Below, one piece after another: positions 12,575-46,395 of a DNA stretch of 64,000 nucleotides; position 1 is the first letter of the stretch, and each line of letters opens with the position of its first letter. Source of the DNA: Hallerella porci. Lineage in GTDB: Bacteria > Fibrobacterota > Fibrobacteria > Fibrobacterales > Fibrobacteraceae. The stretch lies in NCBI RefSeq assembly GCF_003148885.1, contig NZ_QGHD01000006.1:62001-126000 (forward strand), in the 5' to 3' direction. The translations under genes were made by a program, and so were the position numbers. The notes under the pieces are model-generated. The model searched no databases and was not told the DNA's origin. It saw only the letters and a list, made by a program, of their open reading frames with translations.

Positions 12575-13339
12575 ATGGCAAATAATCCGCAGAAAGAATC
12601 CCCGTTTTTTAGAAATGGTTGGGGTGGAAAACTCCCGAAGATCATTATCGTTTCGGTGTGTTTTCATCTGCTGATTGTTTTTTCGGTCATCTTTTTGAAT
12701 AAAATCAATTTTGAGCGTGAACCCGAAGAAGTTAAAATTTTTGAATTGGTGCAAGTTCAACAGCCCAAGCGCGTAGCGCCGCCGAAAGCAAGACCCAAGC
12801 CCGAAAAGCCCAAACAAGAGCCGCCGAAAGAAATCAAAAAAGAAGTGCCCAAGCCCAAGCCCGAATTAAAACCGGAGCTTCCGCCCGAACCGAAAATCGC
12901 CGAAGAAAAACCGGAACCGAAGCCCGAGCCCGAACCGGAGCCCGCTCCAGAACCCGAGCCGCCCGCCGAAGAATCGATGGATCTTCCCGACGATATGGAT
13001 TTGCCCGAAGAAATCGCCGAAGAATCGGGACTCAATCCCGTGGGCTATGTGGACATGGACCCGCTCATGCAAGTATATCTCGAACGGTTAAAGCAAATTA
13101 TCATGCAAAATTTCAATCCGCCGTCGGGACTCAACGTTTCGAAGAGCACAAAGACTTCGGTGCAATTTACCGTCGATCGTTTTGGCGCCATTACCAATGT
13201 CTCGCTCAAACGTTCCTCGGGCAATAAAACGTGGGATCATCTTTCCATGCGCGCTGTTCAAATTTCCAAACTTCCTGAACTCCCGCCCAATTACCGCGCC
13301 CCCGCGCTTTCGCTCAAATTTAATTTCACACCGAATTAA
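12575..13339 (+). CDS. tonB: TonB family energy transducer
   Basis: Links the ExbB/ExbD motor to outer-membrane receptors; 254 aa. A cytoplasmic N-terminus is followed by one membrane anchor (about 22-42). A long Pro/Lys/Glu-rich periplasmic spacer (about 60-137) comes next, with Lys-Pro pairs giving way to Glu-Pro pairs. The C-terminal TonB-type domain (about 160-254) has VQFTVDRFGAITNVSLKRSSG and the KLPELPPNY stretch. It ends the operon. Downstream are an inverted repeat and then the repeat-rich gap. A TolA-type role is possible, but the C-terminal signature favours TonB. Confidence 0.9.
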   Translation: MANNPQKESPFFRNGWGGKLPKIIIVSVCFHLLIVFSVIFLNKINFEREPEEVKIFELVQVQQPKRVAPPKARPKPEKPKQEPPKEIKKEVPKPKPELKPELPPEPKIAEEKPEPKPEPEPEPAPEPEPPAEESMDLPDDMDLPEEIAEESGLNPVGYVDMDPLMQVYLERLKQIIMQNFNPPSGLNVSKSTKTSVQFTVDRFGAITNVSLKRSSGNKTWDHLSMRAVQISKLPELPPNYRAPALSLKFNFTPN

Positions 13340-13378: not shown

Positions 13379-13498
13379 GCCCGCTTCGCGCGCAATTAGG
13401 AACGAGAAATTAAGAGAATGGCGCGGCGAAGCCGCGCGAAAGAAATAGGGGTTAGTAATCAGTGGTTAGTGGTCTGTTGTCAGTTGTTAGAAACTGCG

Positions 13499-13642
13499 TG
13501 TCATCCTGAGCGGAGTGATATATGAAACTTGGAACTTTAGTTCCTTCGTTGAATTAAGCCTTTTAGGGTAGAATCTAGCGTTTTTTTTTCGCAATGAGAA
13601 CAGCTAGATCCTTCACTGCACTGCGTTTCGTTCAGGATGACA
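13499..13642. repeat. inverted-ended intergenic element, copy A
   Basis: Begins GTGTCATCCTGAGCGGAGTG and ends with the inverted form CGTTCAGGATGAC. Inside are a GGAACTTTAGTTCC palindrome and opposed GAATCTAG/CTAGATCC segments. Copy B lies about 30 bp downstream. Confidence 0.75.
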
Positions 13643-13673
13643 GCGGGGCATTGCGAAAGGATGACAACCGCCG

Positions 13674-13856
13674 AGTCATTCTGAGTGGAGCCGTAGGCGA
13701 AGCGATATATGAAACTTGGAACTTTAGTTCCTTAGTTGAATTAAGCCCTTTGGGGTAGGATCTAGCATTTTCTATTGAGTCCAAAAAAGGACTTCTTCTA
13801 ATTCACAAACCAAGTGCTAGATTCTTCGCTCCATTACATTACGCTCAGAATGACAC
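13674..13856. repeat. inverted-ended intergenic element, copy B
   Basis: Begins GAGTCATTCTGAGTGGAG and ends with GCTCAGAATGACAC. About 80 bp of interior, including the GGAACTTTAGTTCC palindrome, is nearly identical to copy A, while the central part differs. Confidence 0.75.
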
Positions 13857-13860
13857 TACT

Positions 13861-14115
13861 AGATTTCCAGTGCTAACATTTCCCCCAGGCGATGAACCCG
13901 CTGGGATTTCAGTGATAACAATTCCCGGGGGAAATAAGTTCACCGAATTTCTAGAAATGACAGTTCCCGGGGGAAATATGTCCGCTGAATTTCTGGAGAT
14001 GAGATTTCCCGGAGAAAATATGTTCGCCGAATTTCTGGAGATGAGATTTCCCGGAGGAAATGTGTTCGCCGGATTTTTGGAAATGAGATTTCCCAGGGGA
14101 AATTTGTTCACCGAA
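13861..14115. repeat. 42-bp-period tandem array 1 (about 6 units)
   Basis: Unit starts fall at 13876, 13918, 13960, 14002, 14044 and 14086, each exactly 42 bp apart, with partial units at both edges. Units 2-6 share a 16-bp palindromic core of the form ATTTCCCGGGGGAAAT followed by a TTCGCCGAATTTCTGGAGATG-like stretch with substitutions. Unit 1 is the most diverged. The period lets both strands stay open in one frame, but there is no ribosome-binding site and no third-position bias. Confidence 0.9.
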
Positions 14116-14161: not shown

Positions 14162-14692
14162 TTAAAGCGATGCAATACACGCTTCGCGGATGCGCCAAAT
14201 TTCTTCGAAGGAATAGGGAAGAAACATTTCCGAAAGCCATTTTTTCATATAGGCTTTGTGGAGTGCCGTTTTTTGTTCGGCGGCTTTTTCGGGGTCGAGT
14301 TCGTGGGTTTCTAAAATGCGCTTTTCAAAATCGTTGAAGAATTTTCCGGGGCGCGTGTAATCGCCGGGGACATTATTTTCGAGCAGATAACAGTGCGCTT
14401 CGGGGATGTAATCCAAATGAAAATGCGTGAGAACGTCAGCGATTTTTGGAGTACTTTCGGCGCTCATTTTAAAAAGCGAAACCATTAAACGAACATGGGG
14501 AATCGCATTTTCTAAGGCATAGCACGCGAGATATGCGTGCTTTCCGCTACACGTTCCGCGCCCGTCTTGAAGAACGCTTAAAGCGTCTTTCGGATTTGAG
14601 GTTCTGCCGTAGGGGAGCGCTGCAATATAAGATTTGAGCGCATCCCACGTGAGAATGCCTTTTTCGCGGGCGAGGTCGGTGTAAGGGGTCAT
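14162..14692 (-). CDS. transglutaminase-like domain protein
   Basis: Predicted 176-aa cytoplasmic protein. The central GRGTCSGKHAYLACYALEN stretch resembles the catalytic-Cys helix of transglutaminase-like folds, and a downstream His (EAHCYLLEN, about 30-60 residues on) could be the second catalytic residue; the third is not clear. No signal peptide is visible. The ATG at 14692 lies 1 nt after the stop of the giant activase gene, so translation is probably coupled. An upstream in-frame extension to 14773 would overlap that gene and is rejected. Substrate and role are unknown, and a link to acyl-CoA metabolism rests only on position. Confidence 0.65.
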   Translation of the reverse strand: MTPYTDLAREKGILTWDALKSYIAALPYGRTSNPKDALSVLQDGRGTCSGKHAYLACYALENAIPHVRLMVSLFKMSAESTPKIADVLTHFHLDYIPEAHCYLLENNVPGDYTRPGKFFNDFEKRILETHELDPEKAAEQKTALHKAYMKKWLSEMFLPYSFEEIWRIREACIASL

Positions 14693-14693
14693 A

Positions 14694-17600
14694 TTATGCC
14701 GTGACGTGATGCGACTTTTCCAAATCGCGGGCGTTGATAATGAGCATCTGCAAACGGTTTTCGATGTTTGCAAAACTCGTATCCGGATCGTAGTCGAGGC
14801 TGAGCACTTGAATATGCGGGTATCTTGCCTTGACCGCTTTCGTTAAGCCGCGGCCCGAAATGTGGTTCGCTAAGCACGCAAACGGTTGCACGATGATGAA
14901 GCTGTTAATGCCGTGCGGTGCATTGTAAAGAATTTCGCCCGGAATCAGCCAGCCTTCGCCCGTGTTGTATGTCGGGTCGATGATATCGCCGACAAGTTTT
15001 ACGAGTTCGTAACAATCTGCGTGATGTTCGTAGAGCTTGTATTTTTGAGCGTGCTTTTGAATCGTCTTGACCGCGTGCGTGTAAATTTTCGCCGTGGCTC
15101 CGCCGATGAGCATATTTTCGAGCGGCTTTGCAATCAGTCCGCGCTTGATTTTTTCGCGGCGCACGACTTCGTCGACGCGGAAGAAGTCTGTCATACCGGG
15201 CAGATACACTTCCATGCCGTTATTCATCAAGTAATCTTCGATGTAGCCGTTTGCGCCCGGGTGATAATTCATCAAAATTTCGCCGAGAAGCGCTACGCGC
15301 GGTTTGCGGTAAGAATCGTCGACTTCAATTTTGTTGAAGGCTTCAACCGCTTGATCAAAGAGATGAATCGCTTCTTTCGGATACGCGATGCTCTTCTTCG
15401 AAATCACAGCGACTTTTTCCATGATTTTCGGGAGCCATTCGTCGTAAACTTTTTGCGTGTCACCTGCGTGGAGTTCGTAAGGACGGCTGCGACGATACAT
15501 CGTTTCAATCGCATCCATCATCGTTAAACCCCAAAGCATGTGCAAACGGAAGTCCAAAGTCAATTTGAAGCCCGGGTGCATATTCTTCGTATCCGTTCCG
15601 GTCGTGATGATGGGAACGTCGGCGTAGCCCGCTTCGTCGAGAGCTTTGCGCGCGAGAACTGCATATTGGACAGCGCGGCAGTTTTCGCAGTTCTTCGAAA
15701 GGGTGACTGCGATTTTATCGTGCGGATAATCCGGATGTTGCTTTAACCACAAAAGATTTTCGCCGATATTGATTTGCGCCGGGAAGCAGATATCGTTGTG
15801 CACGTATTTTTTGCCGAGGGCAAAGGCTTCGGGGCCGCCGAGCGGGAGAAGTTCCACAATGTAACCGAGCGCTTGGAAGTAAGCGGTCGCGAGAATGCTA
15901 AATCCGCGAGAAAGGTTTGGCACCAAAATTTTGCGAACGTCTTTGTCTTCTTTGTTGAATTTGACAGGGAAGAGCGGACCTTCGGTTTTGGGCGGGAAGT
16001 TGACTTTGCGACGAGCGCGGACCGTTTCGATAAAGCTTTTCACGCGAATGCCGACAGGACCGCGGGCATCGCCTTCGTCGAGCTTGAGCATTAACAATTC
16101 TTTCATCGAAACTTCGTGGAGCATACGGCTCATTTCATCGGTTAAAACCGAATCGTGTCCGCAGCCAAAGCTCACGATTTGCACGAGTTCAAGAGCGGGG
16201 TCGCGGGCGGCGAGCATAGTTGCGCCGAGCATTCGCATGTGGAAGGTATTCTTCACTTCCATGCGGGTGTGTTTATCAATATCCTGATCGAAAACTCCCG
16301 GAAGCGATTCTGTCGTGAGAACAGGAATGCCCATCCGCGTAAAGTGCTGTGCGATGTTGTGGTTGATGAGAGTGTCTGCGTGATACGGACGACCTGCTAA
16401 GCAAATTGCAAAGTCGCCGGTTTTGCGGACATTTTCCAAGATTTGCGCGCCTTCGTCGGCGAGGGTTTTGCGGAAAGTATTGAGGGCGGTTTCGCCTTCG
16501 GTGACCGCTTTATCGAGAATTTTTTTCTTGATTCCCCAGAGTTCGTGGAAGTAATGAATCGTCTGCTTGCGGCGCTGATCGGTATCGGTCCAATGGAAGA
16601 CCGGCTGAATCATCGGGATGCCGTAGCGGTGTTCCGGGTCATCGGAATTGCGGCTGACATCGGGATAACCTTGGACGACGGGGCAGACTGCGGTCGCTGT
16701 AAATTTGCTGTGATCGCTCGGAAGAGCAACCATCATCGGGAAGAAAATCGAATTGACTTTCTTATCGACTAAGTCTAAGACATGTCCGTGGACGAGCTTT
16801 GCCGGGAAGCAAATCGTATCGCTTGCGATGCTACGAAGTCCGCGTTCAAAGAGAGTGTAATCGCTCTGCTTGCTCACGACAACGGTGTAGCCGAGACTTG
16901 TGAAGAACGCCTTCCAGAAAGGTAAACTGGACCAAAATTCGAGAACGCGTGGAATGCCGATGGTCTTTCCCGTCTGCGGAAGCAAAACTTTCGGCGCATA
17001 ATCTTTCACCAAAAGTTGATTTGTGCGCTTCACCATATCGGGGACGGCGAGCATTTTCTTATTGATTTCTGCGATGAGTTTCTTTGTCGCCGGATCATTC
17101 GGGTCTGCGGTGACTTCGCCACGTTCGCAGCGGTTTCCCGTCACAAAGCTTTGACCATCGCTGAATGTCACGATGGTTCGCGAGCAATGGTTGGTGCAGT
17201 ATTGGCAAATTATCCCGGGCTTATTGTCCCAGCTTAAATTGCGGGCAGCTTCGAGACCGATAAATGTCGATTGATAATTCGGGTCGGTCTTCTTTTTCTC
17301 TTCGACGAATTTTTTTGTGAGAAGAGCTACGCCGATAGCACCCATTTCGCCCGGACGTTCGGGGCGAATAGGAACGATACCTGTGAGCTGTTCGAAGGCG
17401 CGGAGAACGGCGTCATTTTTGAAGGTTCCGCCTTGGACGACGACGACTTTGCCGAGGGTTTCCAAATTGCGGATGCGAATCACTTTGGTGAACACATTCT
17501 GAATAATGGAACGGCAAATGCCCGCGATAATATCTTCGGGCTGTTTTCCGTCGCGCTGTTCTGTGATAATTGAACTATTCATGAATACCGTGCAACGGCT

Positions 17601-19109
17601 GCCGAGTTGCGAAGGATTCTTCGCGTTAAATGCGAGTTCGGCAATTTTCTCCATCGGAACGCCGAGGGATTTTGCGTAGGTTTCGATGAAAGAGCCACAG
17701 CCCGATGAGCACGCTTCGTTCAAAATAATTCCGGTGACAACGCCATCGTTCACCGAAATCGCTTTCATATCTTGACCGCCAATGTCCAAAATAAAGGAAA
17801 CATCGGGGCGAAGTTTTTGGGCTGCATTGGCGTGTGCTACGGTTTCAACCGTGTGATAATCCGCGTGGACGGCTTTTGCAAAAAGTTGTTCGCCGTAGCC
17901 CGTCGTGCCGACGCCTAAAATATTTAATTGACAACCGTATTCTTCGTAACGGTCTGCGAGTTCGTTGAGCGCTTTCTTCAAAACGGCGAGAGGTTCCCCT
18001 TCGTTGCTCGCATAAAATCCGTCAATGACTTTTTCTTCTTCGTTTAAGAGGACGAATTTTGTCGTCGTCGAGCCTGCGTCAATGCCTAAGTAAGCGTTGA
18101 TTGTCGAACCCGAAAGCGGCTGCGGATAATGATTTCCTGCAAGCGGATGCGCTTTTTTGAATTGTTCATATTCTTCGTGATTTTTGAAGAACGGTTCGGA
18201 GTGATCTTTGCGTTCGGCAAGACGAATTTCGTTAAAGTGGAGAAGCATCTCCAACGAACCTTCGCGGCGATAACCGCATTCTTTGTCGTTGAACATGCTG
18301 CCGAGAGAAAGCGCTGCGCCGTAAGCGACGAGAACTTCGGAATGTTCGGGGCGAATCGCTTGTTCATCCGAAATGCCGAGGCGTTCTTTGAAAGCGCGGA
18401 CGAGTGTCGGGTTAAAGGTCAAAGGTCCGCCTTCGAAAATGACAGGCGGCTTAATTTCCATGCCTTGGGCGAGACCGCCGATGGTCTGCTTGGCGATAGC
18501 GTGGAAACTCGAAAGGGCGACGTCTTCTTTGGCGACGCCGTTGTTTAAGAGCGGTTGAATATCGGTTTTGGCAAAAACGCCGCAGCGTCCCGAGATTTCG
18601 TAAACTTTTTGGCCGCGGGCAGCAAACGATTCAAATTGTTCGGTTTTAATGCGGAGAAGTCCAGCGACTTGGTCAATGAAAGCACCGGTACCGCCTGCGC
18701 AGACACCGTTCATGCGCATATCGCTAGCGATGAGTTTTCCGGTTCCCTTGTCCTTTTCAAAGAAGACGACTTTCGCGTCCTGACCGCCTAGTTCGATAGC
18801 GACGCGGGCTTCGGGATGCGTAGAGCGGACAGCGAGAGCATTTGCTACGACTTCTTGTACAAAGAAAGCATGGGTTGCTTCGGCAAAAGGCTGACCACCC
18901 GAGCCGCAGAATGCCACTTGGAAATTCTTATCGGGGAACATACCATGGGCGGTAGAGAGAACTTCGTACACTTTCTGCGCCTGCATCGCATTGTGGCGTT
19001 CGTATGTAAAGTGAAGAAGTTTTTCGGTCGCAGGATCTACGACGGCGATTTTCACAGTGGTGGAGCCGACGTCAACGCCGACCCATAAATCGTTATTCAA
19101 ATTGCTCAT
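14694..19109 (-). CDS. acyl-CoA dehydratase activase fusion protein (two BadF/BcrA-type ATPase domains)
   Basis: A 1471-aa protein of the 2-hydroxyacyl-CoA dehydratase activase superfamily. The first ASKHA ATPase domain starts at residue 10 (GVDVGSTTVK), with iron-sulfur-type cysteines C137 (GVCAGGTGAF) and C176 (RCGVF). A second ATPase domain begins at about 340 (LGIDAGSTTTK) and has its own EACSSGCGSF and SRCTVF cysteine motifs. A long C-terminal half with CXXC-type and CGHD motifs resembles the DUF2229/dehydratase-subunit-like regions of this family. In characterised relatives the activator uses ATP to inject an electron into a dehydratase; the substrate here is unknown. A TAAATTTA box 7 nt before the ATG replaces a ribosome-binding site. 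Confidence 0.88.
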   Translation of the reverse strand: MSNLNNDLWVGVDVGSTTVKIAVVDPATEKLLHFTYERHNAMQAQKVYEVLSTAHGMFPDKNFQVAFCGSGGQPFAEATHAFFVQEVVANALAVRSTHPEARVAIELGGQDAKVVFFEKDKGTGKLIASDMRMNGVCAGGTGAFIDQVAGLLRIKTEQFESFAARGQKVYEISGRCGVFAKTDIQPLLNNGVAKEDVALSSFHAIAKQTIGGLAQGMEIKPPVIFEGGPLTFNPTLVRAFKERLGISDEQAIRPEHSEVLVAYGAALSLGSMFNDKECGYRREGSLEMLLHFNEIRLAERKDHSEPFFKNHEEYEQFKKAHPLAGNHYPQPLSGSTINAYLGIDAGSTTTKFVLLNEEEKVIDGFYASNEGEPLAVLKKALNELADRYEEYGCQLNILGVGTTGYGEQLFAKAVHADYHTVETVAHANAAQKLRPDVSFILDIGGQDMKAISVNDGVVTGIILNEACSSGCGSFIETYAKSLGVPMEKIAELAFNAKNPSQLGSRCTVFMNSSIITEQRDGKQPEDIIAGICRSIIQNVFTKVIRIRNLETLGKVVVVQGGTFKNDAVLRAFEQLTGIVPIRPERPGEMGAIGVALLTKKFVEEKKKTDPNYQSTFIGLEAARNLSWDNKPGIICQYCTNHCSRTIVTFSDGQSFVTGNRCERGEVTADPNDPATKKLIAEINKKMLAVPDMVKRTNQLLVKDYAPKVLLPQTGKTIGIPRVLEFWSSLPFWKAFFTSLGYTVVVSKQSDYTLFERGLRSIASDTICFPAKLVHGHVLDLVDKKVNSIFFPMMVALPSDHSKFTATAVCPVVQGYPDVSRNSDDPEHRYGIPMIQPVFHWTDTDQRRKQTIHYFHELWGIKKKILDKAVTEGETALNTFRKTLADEGAQILENVRKTGDFAICLAGRPYHADTLINHNIAQHFTRMGIPVLTTESLPGVFDQDIDKHTRMEVKNTFHMRMLGATMLAARDPALELVQIVSFGCGHDSVLTDEMSRMLHEVSMKELLMLKLDEGDARGPVGIRVKSFIETVRARRKVNFPPKTEGPLFPVKFNKEDKDVRKILVPNLSRGFSILATAYFQALGYIVELLPLGGPEAFALGKKYVHNDICFPAQINIGENLLWLKQHPDYPHDKIAVTLSKNCENCRAVQYAVLARKALDEAGYADVPIITTGTDTKNMHPGFKLTLDFRLHMLWGLTMMDAIETMYRRSRPYELHAGDTQKVYDEWLPKIMEKVAVISKKSIAYPKEAIHLFDQAVEAFNKIEVDDSYRKPRVALLGEILMNYHPGANGYIEDYLMNNGMEVYLPGMTDFFRVDEVVRREKIKRGLIAKPLENMLIGGATAKIYTHAVKTIQKHAQKYKLYEHHADCYELVKLVGDIIDPTYNTGEGWLIPGEILYNAPHGINSFIIVQPFACLANHISGRGLTKAVKARYPHIQVLSLDYDPDTSFANIENRLQMLIINARDLEKSHHVTA

Positions 19110-40327: not shown

Positions 40328-40909
40328 ATGAATAAGTTTTTCGGTTGTTTGAGAGTTGCAGCGATTGCATCGGCTGCATTTGTGGCTTGCGATGACTCGA
40401 GCAGTTCTCCTAGCGGCGACGACCTCAGCAGTTCTAGCGCAGAAGTCAAGAACGAAGTTTATTCGAAAGATGACCTTGAAGAATGCGTGAAGGCAAATGA
40501 CGGCGACACCGTTTTCGTCCAAGATGAAAAAGTCAATTACGTTTGCCAAGAAGGCGAGTGGATTGCAGAAGCAAAATCTTCTTCTTCGGAAAAGGTCAGC
40601 TCCAGCAGCGAAAAAGATGAAAAGTCGAGCTCGTCTGTAAAGTCTTCGGAATCTAAGAAATCTTCAAGTTCCGTAGCAAAGTCTTCGGAATCTAAGAAGT
40701 CTTCTAGTTCTGTAGCAAAGTCTTCGGAATCTAAGAAGTCTTCTAGTTCTGTAGAAAAGTCTTCGGAATCGAAGGAATCATCTAGTTCCGCAGAAAAGTC
40801 TTCGGAATCTAAGGAATCTTCAAGTTCTGTAGAAGAAAGTTCTTCGAGCTTTTGTTCGCTTGACAACTGTGGACTTCAGGAAGGGGAATCCGAATCTGGA
40901 CAGCTTTAG
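40328..40909 (+). CDS. Ser-rich repeat lipoprotein
   Basis: A 193-aa predicted lipoprotein. The signal peptide ends in lipobox FVAC (Cys at about 21). A Ser/Asp stretch, a compact 50-residue segment (about 43-92) with EECVKANDGDTVFVQDEKVNYVC, and a long Lys/Ser/Glu repeat follow. The repeat unit is about 13 residues, of the type KSSESKKSSSSVA, present about five times. A short Cys-containing tail ends the protein. The 39-bp DNA repeats behind it could recombine. AGAAGGAT lies ahead of the ATG. Function is unknown; probably an exposed outer-membrane lipoprotein. Confidence 0.8.
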   Translation: MNKFFGCLRVAAIASAAFVACDDSSSSPSGDDLSSSSAEVKNEVYSKDDLEECVKANDGDTVFVQDEKVNYVCQEGEWIAEAKSSSSEKVSSSSEKDEKSSSSVKSSESKKSSSSVAKSSESKKSSSSVAKSSESKKSSSSVEKSSESKESSSSAEKSSESKESSSSVEESSSSFCSLDNCGLQEGESESGQL

Positions 40910-41599: not shown

Positions 41600-43435
41600 A
41601 TGAAAAATGTTGATACGATTGCCGTTTTGGATTTCGGCGGACAGTATGCGCACTTGATTGCGAACCGCGTTCGTCGTCTGGGAGTTTTTACCGAAATTCA
41701 TTCTCCGAATGCTCCGGTTTCGGAACTTGAAGGGGTGAAGGGAATTATTTATAGCGGTGGACCTTCGAGCGTTTATGCGCCAGATGCGCCCGCTTACAAT
41801 CCCGCGATTTTGGATATTCCCGTTCCGAAGCTCGGCATTTGCTACGGACATCAACTGATTGCGCAACAACTCGGCGGGCACGTAGAACCGGGAAAAGTGA
41901 AAGAATACGGCATCGCAGATTTAGAAGTCGAAGATGAAAATTGCCCCATCTTAAAAGGCCTCCCGAAGGCTTCGCCGATGTGGATGAGTCACGGTGACCA
42001 AGTGACGGAACTGCCCGCGGGTTACCGCATTGTCGCAAGCACGAAAGATTGCAAAGTCGCTGCGGTTGCCTTTGACAGCGAACTTCCGAATCGGAAAATT
42101 TTCGGCATTCAATTCCATCCCGAAGTGACTCACAGCCGTTTCGGCATGAAAATTCTCGACAACTTTATCGATGTCTGCGGCGCTTCGCGTTCGTGGAATA
42201 TGAAAAGTTATTTGCCGTTAATCACGCAAAAAATCAAAGACCAAGTGAAAGAACGCAAAGTGTTCTTGCTCGTGAGCGGTGGCGTCGATTCAACGGTGGC
42301 ATTCGTTCTTTTGAACCGCGTTCTCGGATCCGAAAAAGTCCTCGGCCTTCATGTAGATAACGGGATGATGCGCCTCGGCGAATCGCAAAAAATCATGGAA
42401 TTTTTGAAAGCCGAAGGCATGAATAATTTGAAAGTCCGCGATGCGAGCGATCACTTTTTGGCAAAGCTCCAAGGGGTCACTGCTCCCGAAACGAAGCGCG
42501 GCATTATCGGCAAAGAATTCCTTGTCGTCAAAGACGAAGAAATGGCGAAGCTCCATTTGGATCCGAATGAATGGATGATGGCGCAAGGAACGATTTATCC
42601 GGATACGATTGAAAGCGGTGGCACCAAAAATGCAGATAAAATTAAAACGCATCACAACCGCGTGAAAGAAGTTTTGGATTTGATGGAAAAAGGCTTGGTC
42701 TTAGAACCGCTCGCGGATTTGTATAAAGATGAAGTGCGTGCTCTCGGTGAAGAACTCGGCATTCCGCACAATCTCGTGTGGCGGCATCCGTTCCCAGGTC
42801 CGGGTCTTGGCGTGCGTCTGCTCTGCAGCGACGGCGTCCTCGGCAAAGATATGGTCGCATTGGATGAGGTGAAAGATTCGAATGGAAATTCTCTCGTCGA
42901 TTATTTGCGCGAAAATAAAATTTCGGGATATATTCTTCCGATTAAAAGCGTGGGCGTGCAAGGCGACGGCAGAACATATGCGCAGCCGTTCCTCATTACA
43001 ACGCCGAATTTGAGCTGGAAAGAATGCGAAAAATTTGCGACGGAACTTGCGAATCGTTTTAAGGCGATTAACCGCGTGATTTATCAAATCGGAACTGTGG
43101 AGGCTTCGGAACCGAAACTCGTTGCGCAATATGCGACCCGCGAAAATTTCGACACTCTCCGCAAATTTGATGATATCTGCACGCAATTCTTGCAAGAGAA
43201 TGATTTATACGAAAAAATTTGGCAGATGCCCGTGGTCTCGGTACCGCTCCGCGTGAAAAATTTACCGTGCATTGTGATGCGCCCAGTCAATTCGACGGAA
43301 GCGATGACCGCAAACTTTGCGGAAATCGATCCGCAAGCCCTCGCCAAATTGTGGCAGCGCTTCTTAAACGCAGGCGCAGGCTCACTCTGGTACGATGTGA
43401 CGCACAAGCCGCCCGGAACCATTGAGTGGGAATGA
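41600..43435 (+). CDS. guaA: GMP synthase (glutamine-hydrolysing), long form
   Basis: Converts XMP to GMP using glutamine; 611 aa. The N-terminal class I amidotransferase has Cys81 (GICYGHQ), His173 and Glu175 (FHPEVT). The ATP-pyrophosphatase domain has SGGVDS (226-231), and the C-terminal domain ends PPGTIEWE. Most bacterial GuaA proteins are about 515-525 aa. The extra ~90 residues lie after RHPFPGPGLGVRLL in the dimerisation region, as in the longer eukaryote-like forms. The promoter box sits directly before the ATG. A terminator follows within 5 nt of the stop. Confidence 0.95.
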   Translation: MKNVDTIAVLDFGGQYAHLIANRVRRLGVFTEIHSPNAPVSELEGVKGIIYSGGPSSVYAPDAPAYNPAILDIPVPKLGICYGHQLIAQQLGGHVEPGKVKEYGIADLEVEDENCPILKGLPKASPMWMSHGDQVTELPAGYRIVASTKDCKVAAVAFDSELPNRKIFGIQFHPEVTHSRFGMKILDNFIDVCGASRSWNMKSYLPLITQKIKDQVKERKVFLLVSGGVDSTVAFVLLNRVLGSEKVLGLHVDNGMMRLGESQKIMEFLKAEGMNNLKVRDASDHFLAKLQGVTAPETKRGIIGKEFLVVKDEEMAKLHLDPNEWMMAQGTIYPDTIESGGTKNADKIKTHHNRVKEVLDLMEKGLVLEPLADLYKDEVRALGEELGIPHNLVWRHPFPGPGLGVRLLCSDGVLGKDMVALDEVKDSNGNSLVDYLRENKISGYILPIKSVGVQGDGRTYAQPFLITTPNLSWKECEKFATELANRFKAINRVIYQIGTVEASEPKLVAQYATRENFDTLRKFDDICTQFLQENDLYEKIWQMPVVSVPLRVKNLPCIVMRPVNSTEAMTANFAEIDPQALAKLWQRFLNAGAGSLWYDVTHKPPGTIEWE

Positions 43436-43440
43436 TAAAA

Positions 43441-43467
43441 AAGAACCGCGATGCGGTTCTTTTTTAA
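43441..43467 (+). terminator. intrinsic terminator after guaA
   Basis: Stem 43441-43449 pairs with 43453-43461, loop GAT/ATG region, then TTTTTT. Confidence 0.9.
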
Positions 43468-43667
43468 TGAGAAATAAGGAGGGAGAGTTTTGAGAACTTA
43501 GAGCTTAGAACTTTGATCTTAGAAAACTCTAAGTTCTAAGATCTTGCATAGCGCACGAAGCGCCTAACTCTCTAATTATGCATTGTTAATTATCCATTAT
43601 AAATTGAATCCAAGCGGTATTTCTCTTCTGCGAAAGTAAAAGGGAATCGCTTTTCTAATTATAAAAG

Positions 43668-44040
43668 CTTCTCCGACACTCCGATGAAGGTCGTGACGCC
43701 CGTCTCTAGGCTCTCCGACGCTCCGATGAAGGTAGCGACGCCCGTCTCTAGGCTCTCCGACGCTCCGATGAAGGTAGCGTCGGCCGTTTCTAGGCTCTCC
43801 GGGACTCCGATGAAGGTAGCGACGCCCGTCTCTAGGCTCTCCGACACTCCGATGAAGGTAGCGACGGCCGTTTCTAGGTTGTCCGAGCGTCCGATGAAGC
43901 TAGTGACGACCGTTTCTAGCTTCTCCGAGCGTCCGATGAAGGTAGCGACGGCCGTCTCCAGGCTATCCGACACTCCGATGAAGCTAGCGACGACTGTTTC
44001 TAGGTTGTCTGAGCGTCCGATAAAGGTGGAAACGGAAATA
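43668..44040. repeat. 42-bp-period tandem array 2 (about 9 units)
   Basis: Unit starts fall at 43684, 43726, 43768, 43810, 43852, 43894, 43936 and 43978, with a partial unit from 44020, each exactly 42 bp apart. Every full unit begins ATGAAG and carries a GTTTCTAGG/GTCTCTAGG block and a CTCCGA(C/G)-type block. Substitutions occur in all codon positions. Long frames are open on both strands but lack ribosome-binding sites. Confidence 0.92.
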
Positions 44041-44074
44041 GTTAGGAATTAGGAGAGCGGTGCGCACTCATTTC

Positions 44075-46375
44075 TCATTCTTTATACGCACAGCAACGGT
44101 AGGAAATCGAGGGGTCGGTGTAGAATGCAGCGGCGCCTTTGTACTTTTTATTTTCGCCGGTAAAGAAAACGGCTTCGGTGCGAATCGCTTCGTATTTCAA
44201 ATTGCCCGCCAATTCTTCGAGCCATTTCTTGCCGCCTTTTTTGTATTCGGTTAATGGCGCATAATCTTCGCCGAGCGAATCCCCATCGGCAGAAGATACT
44301 TTGAAAATTTGAATCGAATCTTTGAAATCTTTTTTCGTGAGTTTCTTGTAGAGGGTGCGGGCGGTGTCGAGGGTGTAACTCGTATCAACCTTTGTGCCTT
44401 CGCGGTAAAGGTAAACGGTGTCTTGCGTGTAGCCGGCGCGGGAGCGGTTCGGGAGCGAATACGTCGTGCATTTAGAAAGCGATTCGCGGGAACTTCCTGT
44501 GTAATAGACGTAGCTTGAACCGCGGAGAACGTAGAGCATCGTATCGGAGGGACCGATTGTCCATTCTTGAAAGCCGCCCGAAAGATCGCGGATACCGTCG
44601 GGGCTTACGCAGAGTTTGTTCCGCTTTTTCATATCCAGCGCAAGAGTGGAATCGTCCGAGCCGACACCGCAATTTTTATACAAGAATTCGGTGGCAGAAA
44701 AATCCCCGTCTTCGATGACGCCGTAAGACGAACGCCCTTGAGCCATGCACGCAGCTTTCCAATCGGCGGATTTGCAAAGGGAAATGGTGAAGCCGCTTGC
44801 GCTCATCGCTTCGCAGCCGGCGACCGCTTCGCTATAGAGAACGCCGTGGGCAAAGGTGCTATCGGAATCGCGGTGTTCAAATTGTTCGATGCAGAAACGC
44901 GTCGTATCGCTTGTGCGGACGGGGACAAATCCTTCGGGGCAATTTAAGTCGGCTTCGGGACCTTCGGAAACGTAAATGGTATCGGTAAGCGCTTTCGAAT
45001 AATAGCCCGAAGAATCCATCGAACGGATGCGGAGAATGACGGTATCTTTCGGCACAATCCAACGAATGGTATCGGTGACGTATTCGCCCGTTGCGGATAC
45101 TGCCATCGAGTCGCCACTAACTTTATACGACTTCGTGTATTTTTCTTCGGACATGCCGCCGGCACCTGCCGCCACTTCCCACGATTTTCCGTTCCAAATG
45201 CAGACTTCGTATTTTTTTACTTGGCGGTAGCAGAGCCCTTCGAAGCAATCATTCGGGTAATGCAAAATCGAGTCGGCGGTAATTCGGCTGGTATCGGAAA
45301 GAGGGTCAGCGCTTCGCGCCCAAAAGAGGATGATTCGGTTCGAATCGAGAGTGGCTTTGCCTAGAGAATCGGTTTCGTAACGGAGAGTTTTCGGCATGAG
45401 CGGAGCGATGCGATCGGTCGTCATAAACAGTTGATTCGTTTCGACGGAACCTGTTCCCGATGCGTTTCCCGCAGAATCCCATGCGATAATTCCAATCGTA
45501 TAATTGCTTTCGGGGCTTAATCCTTCGATAATCATGCGGAATCGGTTTGCACTATCCGCTGAAAAGTCAAATCCTTTGCCGTCTAAAACAGCGAGACGCA
45601 AATAATTTTTCGAAGCGTCGCCTTGCGAGGTGGTGTCAATCCAAAGAGAATCATTTGTAAAACGGAAACGGTGATGTCTTTTCCACAATTCATTGCCGAG
45701 AGAATCCGATTTTCCTTGATGCGTAATTTTTACTTTGACGCGGCGCAAATCTTGATTTTCATTTTCGGCCCAAAGGAGCACATTGTAGCCGGCGATGGGT
45801 CCCGAAAGACTTTCGGGCGCGTAATAATCCCGCTGATCGGTGGGCCGCGCCCAATCGATTGCGACGCCTGTTGTCCAAACGGAATCGGTAATCGTTACGA
45901 GAGAAGGCGGCAAGTCATCACCAAAATGCACAAAGATATGTTGCACATCTCCCGAGCGGACATTGTCTGCGTATTCGCACCAAATGGCAATCGCTAAACT
46001 GTCTTGGTGCAAATAATCTTTCACATATTTGGTAAGGTCAAGAGTGTCGTAAAGTTTTTCGGGATTTTGAAAGGCGACTTGAATGGAATGTTCTTTGGCT
46101 CCGCTCGGAACACTCGTCGTGGAATCGTCCACGTAAAGAGTATCTACCCAAATATGAAAACGCTGAAGATTTTCCGTTTCGATGGGAATTCTCCAGCGCA
46201 GTTGATAGCAGTAAGTCGATGAATCGCTTTTACTAGAACAGCCGCGCAAAATGGAAAGATCTTGAACGGCGCGTTCAAAACTGTAATCGTCGTGAGCATT
46301 TGTATCGGAACAAGCGTCAAATACGAGAACGCAAACGAGACAAAGAAAAGCGAGAATCGGAGTGAAAATTTTCAT
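44075..46375 (-). CDS. large lipoprotein with C-terminal formylglycine-generating-enzyme-like domain
   Basis: A 766-aa predicted lipoprotein with a lipobox ending FDAC (about residue 22). About 500 residues of beta-rich sequence with fibronectin-like strands follow (ITDSVWTTGVAIDWARP, LSPESNYTIGIIAWDSAGN). A C-terminal region from CPEGFVPVRTSDTTRFCIEQFEHRD to SYRCCAYKE resembles the SUMF/FGE-sulfatase fold found in many Fibrobacter surface proteins; catalytic cysteine function is not assured. The ATG at 46375 has no ribosome-binding site, but TATCTTG lies 6 nt upstream. It follows pdxT by 20 nt, though no functional link is evident. Confidence 0.8.
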   Translation of the reverse strand: MKIFTPILAFLCLVCVLVFDACSDTNAHDDYSFERAVQDLSILRGCSSKSDSSTYCYQLRWRIPIETENLQRFHIWVDTLYVDDSTTSVPSGAKEHSIQVAFQNPEKLYDTLDLTKYVKDYLHQDSLAIAIWCEYADNVRSGDVQHIFVHFGDDLPPSLVTITDSVWTTGVAIDWARPTDQRDYYAPESLSGPIAGYNVLLWAENENQDLRRVKVKITHQGKSDSLGNELWKRHHRFRFTNDSLWIDTTSQGDASKNYLRLAVLDGKGFDFSADSANRFRMIIEGLSPESNYTIGIIAWDSAGNASGTGSVETNQLFMTTDRIAPLMPKTLRYETDSLGKATLDSNRIILFWARSADPLSDTSRITADSILHYPNDCFEGLCYRQVKKYEVCIWNGKSWEVAAGAGGMSEEKYTKSYKVSGDSMAVSATGEYVTDTIRWIVPKDTVILRIRSMDSSGYYSKALTDTIYVSEGPEADLNCPEGFVPVRTSDTTRFCIEQFEHRDSDSTFAHGVLYSEAVAGCEAMSASGFTISLCKSADWKAACMAQGRSSYGVIEDGDFSATEFLYKNCGVGSDDSTLALDMKKRNKLCVSPDGIRDLSGGFQEWTIGPSDTMLYVLRGSSYVYYTGSSRESLSKCTTYSLPNRSRAGYTQDTVYLYREGTKVDTSYTLDTARTLYKKLTKKDFKDSIQIFKVSSADGDSLGEDYAPLTEYKKGGKKWLEELAGNLKYEAIRTEAVFFTGENKKYKGAAAFYTDPSISYRCCAYKE

Positions 46376-46395
46376 CGGGAACAAGATACAAAAAT

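Follow-up and report, generated by a model that had tools for sequence, protein, structure and literature searches.

Why should two tandem arrays whose sequences seem unrelated share the same 42-bp period? The question is raised by array B, the second of two such arrays in the 64,000-nucleotide stretch of the Hallerella porci genome analysed here (contig NZ_QGHD01000006.1, positions 62,001 to 126,000 of the forward strand; hereafter the window). Array B occupies window positions 43668-44040 (+ strand). An earlier note on this DNA had described about nine units spaced exactly 42 bp apart, and this is real: TRF reports 42 bp x 8.5 copies with 84% matches over 43670-44027 (score 444), and aligning the array in rows of 42 bp gives nine rows with zero indels. 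In the register of the superfamily described below, the consensus unit is TAGCGACGACCGTTTCTAGGTTCTCCGAGACTCCGATGAAGC (from 44 family-B units), and a unit scan places eight full units at 43691-44026 (+). The array sits in a convergent gap, 3' of a gene at 41600-43435 (+) that we take from its sequence to be guaA-like, encoding GMP synthase, and that is 81-87% identical to the genes of other Fibrobacter genomes. On its right lies a gene for 769 aa at 44075-46384 (-), whose matches to fn3 and FGE-sulfatase are weak and stay below cut-off. A Ser-rich lipoprotein-like gene at 40328-40909 carries a coding repeat of its own, of 39 bp in five copies.

The other array, A, spans 13870-14115 (+) when its diverged terminal unit is included (TRF, unit scan and MAFFT); TRF itself reports 42 bp x 4.6 copies at 13922-14115. 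The gene on its left (12575-13339, +) faces ORFs at 14162-14773 and 14694-19109 (both -). The period shared by the two window arrays and their placement between convergent genes, both claimed in the earlier note, are thus borne out by TRF and by the strands of the flanking genes, respectively. By eye the A and B units seem unrelated, with 17/42 positions identical in register. Beside array A, at 13493-13860, lie MITE-like repeats with GTCATTCTGAG.../...CTCAGAATGAC ends, whose GATATATGAAACTTGGAACTTTAGTTCC core was found in 10 copies in the genome sample, 7 of them near units.

Both arrays are free of genes, as had been proposed from the letters alone. A protein-coding repeat was rejected, with no codon-position bias (P 0.83 for B and 0.38 for A) and no Pfam match over cut-off; the open frames that cross the arrays are due to chance, each unit being 14 codons long, and since sister arrays have periods of 41, 43 and 44 bp, which break the frame, a frame cannot be kept. 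A CRISPR array was likewise rejected, the units abutting each other without unique spacers. Two coding-looking repeats elsewhere in the genome also have a 42-bp (14-codon) period (C10:32855-33133 and C1:1208-1401) and are, as far as seen, unrelated to the superfamily.

Searches within the genome give 7 other matches for the family of array B and 23 for that of A, itself included, with 50, 12, 15 and 8 matches for the further families C, F, G and E, respectively. In total, the superfamily comprises 50 loci and 15,451 bp in a genome of 2.85 Mb (78 contigs), as listed from the family searches, including those with C, E, F and G, together with 20 further fetched loci; the coding array at C1:1208 is excluded from the family counts. 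The number of units per array varies between loci, from 1 to 21 in those read, and the unit period is mostly 42 bp, with 41, 43 or 44 bp in some arrays. In 756 kb of unselected DNA (contigs C1, C3 and C4 plus the window), all 16 non-coding tandem arrays of at least 2.5 copies have a period of 41-44 bp by TRF, once the 21-bp and 24-bp sub-period rows of 42- and 44-bp arrays and a 21-bp row in a Ser-rich gene are set aside.

This abundance does not extend to relatives. B has no match in 100 other genomes of the family, and A, C, E, F and G have none in five congeners. A sequence model of the whole superfamily gives 62 matches in this genome; among 110 other genomes of the family, five have a single weak match each, the best with E 6.6e-5. 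On viral contigs, the pattern for A gives no match and that for B 18 single matches, presumably chance ones. The open-access literature searched held no recognised description of comparable arrays in Fibrobacter.

The dispersed loci also bear on the gene context. The earlier note had stressed convergent placement and suggested, as one example, a transcription-collision buffer, in which the arrays would separate genes transcribed towards each other. Both window arrays agree with this, but among the 20 array-holding gaps that were typed only 6 are convergent; the other 14 comprise 9 same-direction gaps and 5 divergent ones, according to a simple gene caller based on hexamers, which visibly errs at some starts. 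Here two A arrays in one gap were counted once, the coding array at C1:1208 was excluded, and one more array lies at a contig end. Six of 20 is somewhat above the background of convergent pairs (87/653 neighbouring gene pairs, or 21/124 for gaps of at least 150 bp), an excess that is at most mild, so the convergent placement is not general and the buffer is a very improbable explanation.

We then asked how the arrays relate to each other. Contrary to the claim that the window arrays are unrelated, alignments, hybrid arrays and MAFFT place A and B in one chain of homologous families. When consensus units are aligned circularly, A-D, A-G, A-H, E-F, F-G and C-F are linked in one orientation (z of 19 for A-D, 12 for A-G and 6 for both E-F and F-G), with a D-H link in the orientation opposite to the others; H and I are minor families of 44 and 41 bp. 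By BLASTN, a G array matches A arrays at 64-67% identity over up to 281 bp (E 1.6e-18), and a C array matches G and F arrays. Once the consensus units had been brought into a common register, scanning the sampled DNA (manually typed consensus units, 69% threshold) gave 300 units, and the 258 steps between neighbouring units are 42 bp in 225 cases, 41 bp in 15, 43 bp in 13 and another length in 5. Hybrid arrays cross the family boundaries: one reads BBBBBBG, six B units followed by one G, and C arrays carry a terminal F unit (C...CF and FC...), the junction step being 42 bp in each, while A arrays with D units show a one-base change of register. MAFFT alignment of 21 two-unit stretches puts B, G, A, C and F in the same register with an ungapped core.

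The position of B in this chain is the least firm. In the common register, which for B had been set by its dyad before the unit scan, its identity of 17/42 to A and equally to G has P ~0.02 each, and the best random rotations equal or exceed it. A further family, K, matches B on the opposite strand at 23/42, a value that 0/300 shuffles reached. On the sequence evidence, A, D, G, C, F and E are joined directly, and B appears attached by the hybrid array, the MAFFT alignment and the dyad position, its identity link being weak. Overall, these data show that the families share geometry, register and homology, least firmly in the case of B. Distant membership of one superfamily is thus the most likely reason why the two window arrays have the same period: given homologous families and hybrids that switch in exact register, a common period is expected by descent. 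Within arrays, units are more similar to each other than between arrays in 8/8 families, block duplications are visible, and unit orientation is uniform, except at C1:293793, where one F unit is opposite in strand to the E units.

If the sequences have diverged this far, what is kept besides the period? An inverted-repeat scan gave the first hint of dyads spaced by half a period in B, E, F and G. In all seven families tested (A-G), the best half-period dyad pair falls at unit positions 8.5 (8.0 in E) and 29-29.5, which in array B puts the axes at window positions 43699.5 + 42k and ~43720.5 + 42k. Permutation of columns over distinct units (families with more than 25 being thinned to 25) gave P values of 0.010 for A, 0.050 for B, 0.115 for C and 0.005 for D, and 0/200 each for E, F and G; family C is therefore not significant alone, the dyads of K deviate from the pattern, and the palindromes of any single family are modest. 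Pairing of the arms at dyad 1 is 0.79 within families vs 0.41 when arms are swapped between families, and at dyad 2 it is 0.54 vs 0.42 (n = 6 families for both).

The arms also covary across families. In the MAFFT alignment, covariation is 0.420 against 0.215 (sd 0.019) in shuffles, none of 500 being as high, and pairing cells amount to 67.7% against 56.0% when shuffled; the count covers 21 two-unit stretches out of ~300 units, and the shuffle test is inflated by the relatedness of the sequences. Controls in which the structure was slid along the same alignment gave 0.09-0.19; they retain the relatedness, but are biased towards a structure that was itself drawn from these sequences. Of the five covariation measures, two stay at shuffle level, namely the pairs changed on both sides (15, with 473/500 shuffles as high) and the further pair types (39, with 372/500 as high), which counts against covariation. 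Taking these measures together, the architecture of the unit does look constrained, with two covarying inverted repeats and a distance of 21 bp between their dyads.

Such an architecture could be read by a protein, a dimer sitting on each dyad and the 21-bp spacing aligning the dimers on one face of the helix, for nucleoid organisation, chromosome anchoring or titration of a regulator. Phasing of a nucleoid protein, suggested in the earlier note, may be among such functions. The conserved unit spacing, the 21-bp dyad spacing in 7/7 tested families and the compensating changes all agree with this. However, the arrays are missing from the five congeners and, bar the weak single matches, from the 110 family genomes, which argues against a core role in the lineage; a candidate protein did not emerge, the array units show no 10.5-bp A/T periodicity, and the differing dyad sequences would need either several readers or one that reads structure. 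We therefore regard a protein-binding array as possible, but rather unlikely.

Alternatively, the inverted repeats could act in RNA, the gaps being transcribed into a hairpin sponge, an antitoxin-like repeat RNA or a terminator array. The covarying repeats include G-T cells, and folding of the minus strand gives z-scores of -2.7 for A, -2.1 for D and -2.3 for E. Most other folding z-scores, however, are near those of shuffles; single changes away from paired states at dyad 1 go to G-T 55 times vs 45 for A-C, and no strand is favoured across all families, even if dyad 2 does lean to G-T (74 vs 39). Nor did Rfam return a match over its gathering score in window 43400-44200. Dyads acting at the DNA level are favoured over a role in RNA, which we hold to be improbable.

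The arrays do not lie alone in their gaps. Between the guaA-like gene and array B lie a module with a 7-bp period and a hairpin-like AACTTAG/CTAAGTT motif (M2; 43487-43539, +) and the core AATTATGCATTGTTAATTAT of another (M3; 43574-43593, +). M2 occurs at 44 places in the genome, 28 of which have a listed array within 250 bp; this zone around the arrays makes up ~1.4% of the genome, and in the unselected sample, the zone around units represents 9.8% of the intergenic DNA. Conversely, 21 of the 50 arrays have M2 within 250 bp. The M3 core precedes arrays of more than one family (B at contigs C6 and C26, C at C1:153447), and, more generally, arrays adjoin M2, M3, the MITE-like M1 and runs of the heptamer CACTAACC, modules present only in this genome among the DNA examined.

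These associations bring to mind REP/BIME elements, which owe their dispersal to a RAYT (Y1) transposase. REPs are described as palindromic, intergenic, dispersed and species-specific, with compensatory changes, all of which is true of the arrays, and as having a GT(A/G)G head next to a GC-rich palindrome (PMC2817692). However, GTAG beside a palindrome occurs only in family B and is, by eye, missing from the consensus of A, C, D, E, F and G, so that no head is common to the families, and the units are direct rather than alternating. The sole Y1_Tnp gene of the genome is IS200-like and has no adjoining array, and Y1_Tnp matches number 5 and 9 in two congeners that lack the arrays. A RAYT-driven origin is thus largely refuted and has very little left to recommend it. 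The Y1 transposase locus itself (contig C33, ~2487-2816; L338) adjoins a truncated frame, presumably resembling the C-terminus of leucyl-tRNA synthetase, and a second frame that we take to be PIN-domain-like; it is perhaps transferred or contaminant DNA.

A more serious contender is a neutral minisatellite, in which hairpin-prone slippage and template switching make the copies and repair quasi-palindromes, the arrays being unselected. Quasi-palindrome correction is an established mutational process, and the species restriction, the variable copy number, the occurrence in divergent, convergent and same-direction gaps alike and the homogenisation within arrays are all consistent with it. What such a process alone does not explain is how the dyads keep their positions, 8.5 and 29.5, and the period stays near 42 bp despite divergence to ~40% identity. 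We consider it quite plausible, if not the reading that we would choose.

In the samples taken, the period does not look like a property of the phylum. The earlier note had named a peak at 42 bp across Fibrobacterota as support for its idea; no such peak was seen in the sampled stretches, and outside this genome the contrary outcome, no excess at 42 bp, largely applies. By TRF, 400 kb of a complete congener (G005) held non-coding arrays with periods of 71 and 72 bp, and 373.6 kb from seven other genomes held a single array, in what is probably F. intestinalis ATCC 43854. The latter is non-coding, 41 bp x 4.3 copies, lies 3' of guaA (L211:12142-12319 = L013:3642-3819) and is unrelated in sequence to the Hallerella porci arrays. 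Arrays with a period near 42 bp are thereby seen in the gap after guaA in two species; the gene downstream of guaA differs in the genomes G005, G003 and G004, so that these offer no orthologous empty site for comparison. Another genus of the family (G007, L184:19023-19256) has an apparently non-coding array of 46 bp x 5.1 copies.

Our preferred reading is that array B probably belongs, as a single locus, to a non-coding minisatellite superfamily that is dispersed through this genome and private to it; its period would have been inherited and be held by a unit made of a dyad pair. One ancestral 42-bp tandem array would have spread to many gaps within one lineage, either together with neighbouring repeat modules or via recombination between them, and slippage and unequal exchange would then expand, contract, homogenise and diversify the arrays. 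If the working unit is the dyad pair, spaced by two helical turns, indels disturbing that arrangement would be lost, and the period would for this reason stay near 42 bp. The dyads might be read or kept by a dimeric DNA-binding protein, by hairpin or cruciform formation during replication, or by a mutational bias. Neither a mobilising enzyme nor a binding protein nor an empty site was found for the arrays, and the array that F. intestinalis has of its own in the guaA gap is unexplained by descent within this genome; both points count against this reading. Shared descent, together with maintenance of the two-dyad unit, accounts best for the common period. Between the two options that the earlier note had offered, a single generating mechanism stands in the form of one homologous lineage, while selection on the spacing itself gives way to a constrained two-dyad unit architecture. 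A bolder version, in which ~50 tandem double-dyad arrays form a lineage-specific system with dyad "alphabets" diverging in register and a putative dimeric DNA-binding reader or mobilising enzyme, is in our view doubtful.

As sequence has diverged strongly while period and dyad geometry were kept, geometry and sequence are separable here, which makes these arrays a clean bacterial minisatellite case. Should a protein read the dyads, they would represent a chromosomal site of a new type; should none do so, the arrays would lend themselves well to testing how hairpins drive repeat evolution. The loci would in addition be usable as strain-typing markers.

Several known systems share part of this description. 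Iterons of plasmid origins are direct repeats at one origin, with successive protein sites about two helical turns apart; the spacing of the dyads is similar, but here they lie at ~50 chromosomal gaps. The repeat RNAs of type III toxin-antitoxin systems come from non-coding tandem repeats of roughly 35-45 bp, whereas the present arrays are dispersed at ~50 sites. Bacterial interspersed minisatellites include the MIRU/VNTR loci of Mycobacterium tuberculosis (PMC3635867). Such loci are tens of dispersed, mostly intergenic tandem arrays of a unit of tens of bp in variable copy number, which the present arrays resemble; unlike them, strongly diverged families here share a register, carry two covarying dyads at a distance of 21 bp and form hybrid arrays. 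With REP/BIME and REPIN elements (PMC2817692, PMC3116915), the arrays have in common an intergenic, species-specific and palindromic nature, compensatory changes and mosaics with other modules, but they differ by direct tandem units of 42 bp, by the lack of a RAYT link and by the lack of a GTRG head common to the families. A dispersed minisatellite is expected to consist of direct tandem repeats, with a unit of tens of bp, at many intergenic loci; the arrays, with a period of 41-44 bp at 50 such loci, agree with this and are most likely a lineage-specific, REP/MIRU-like form of it.
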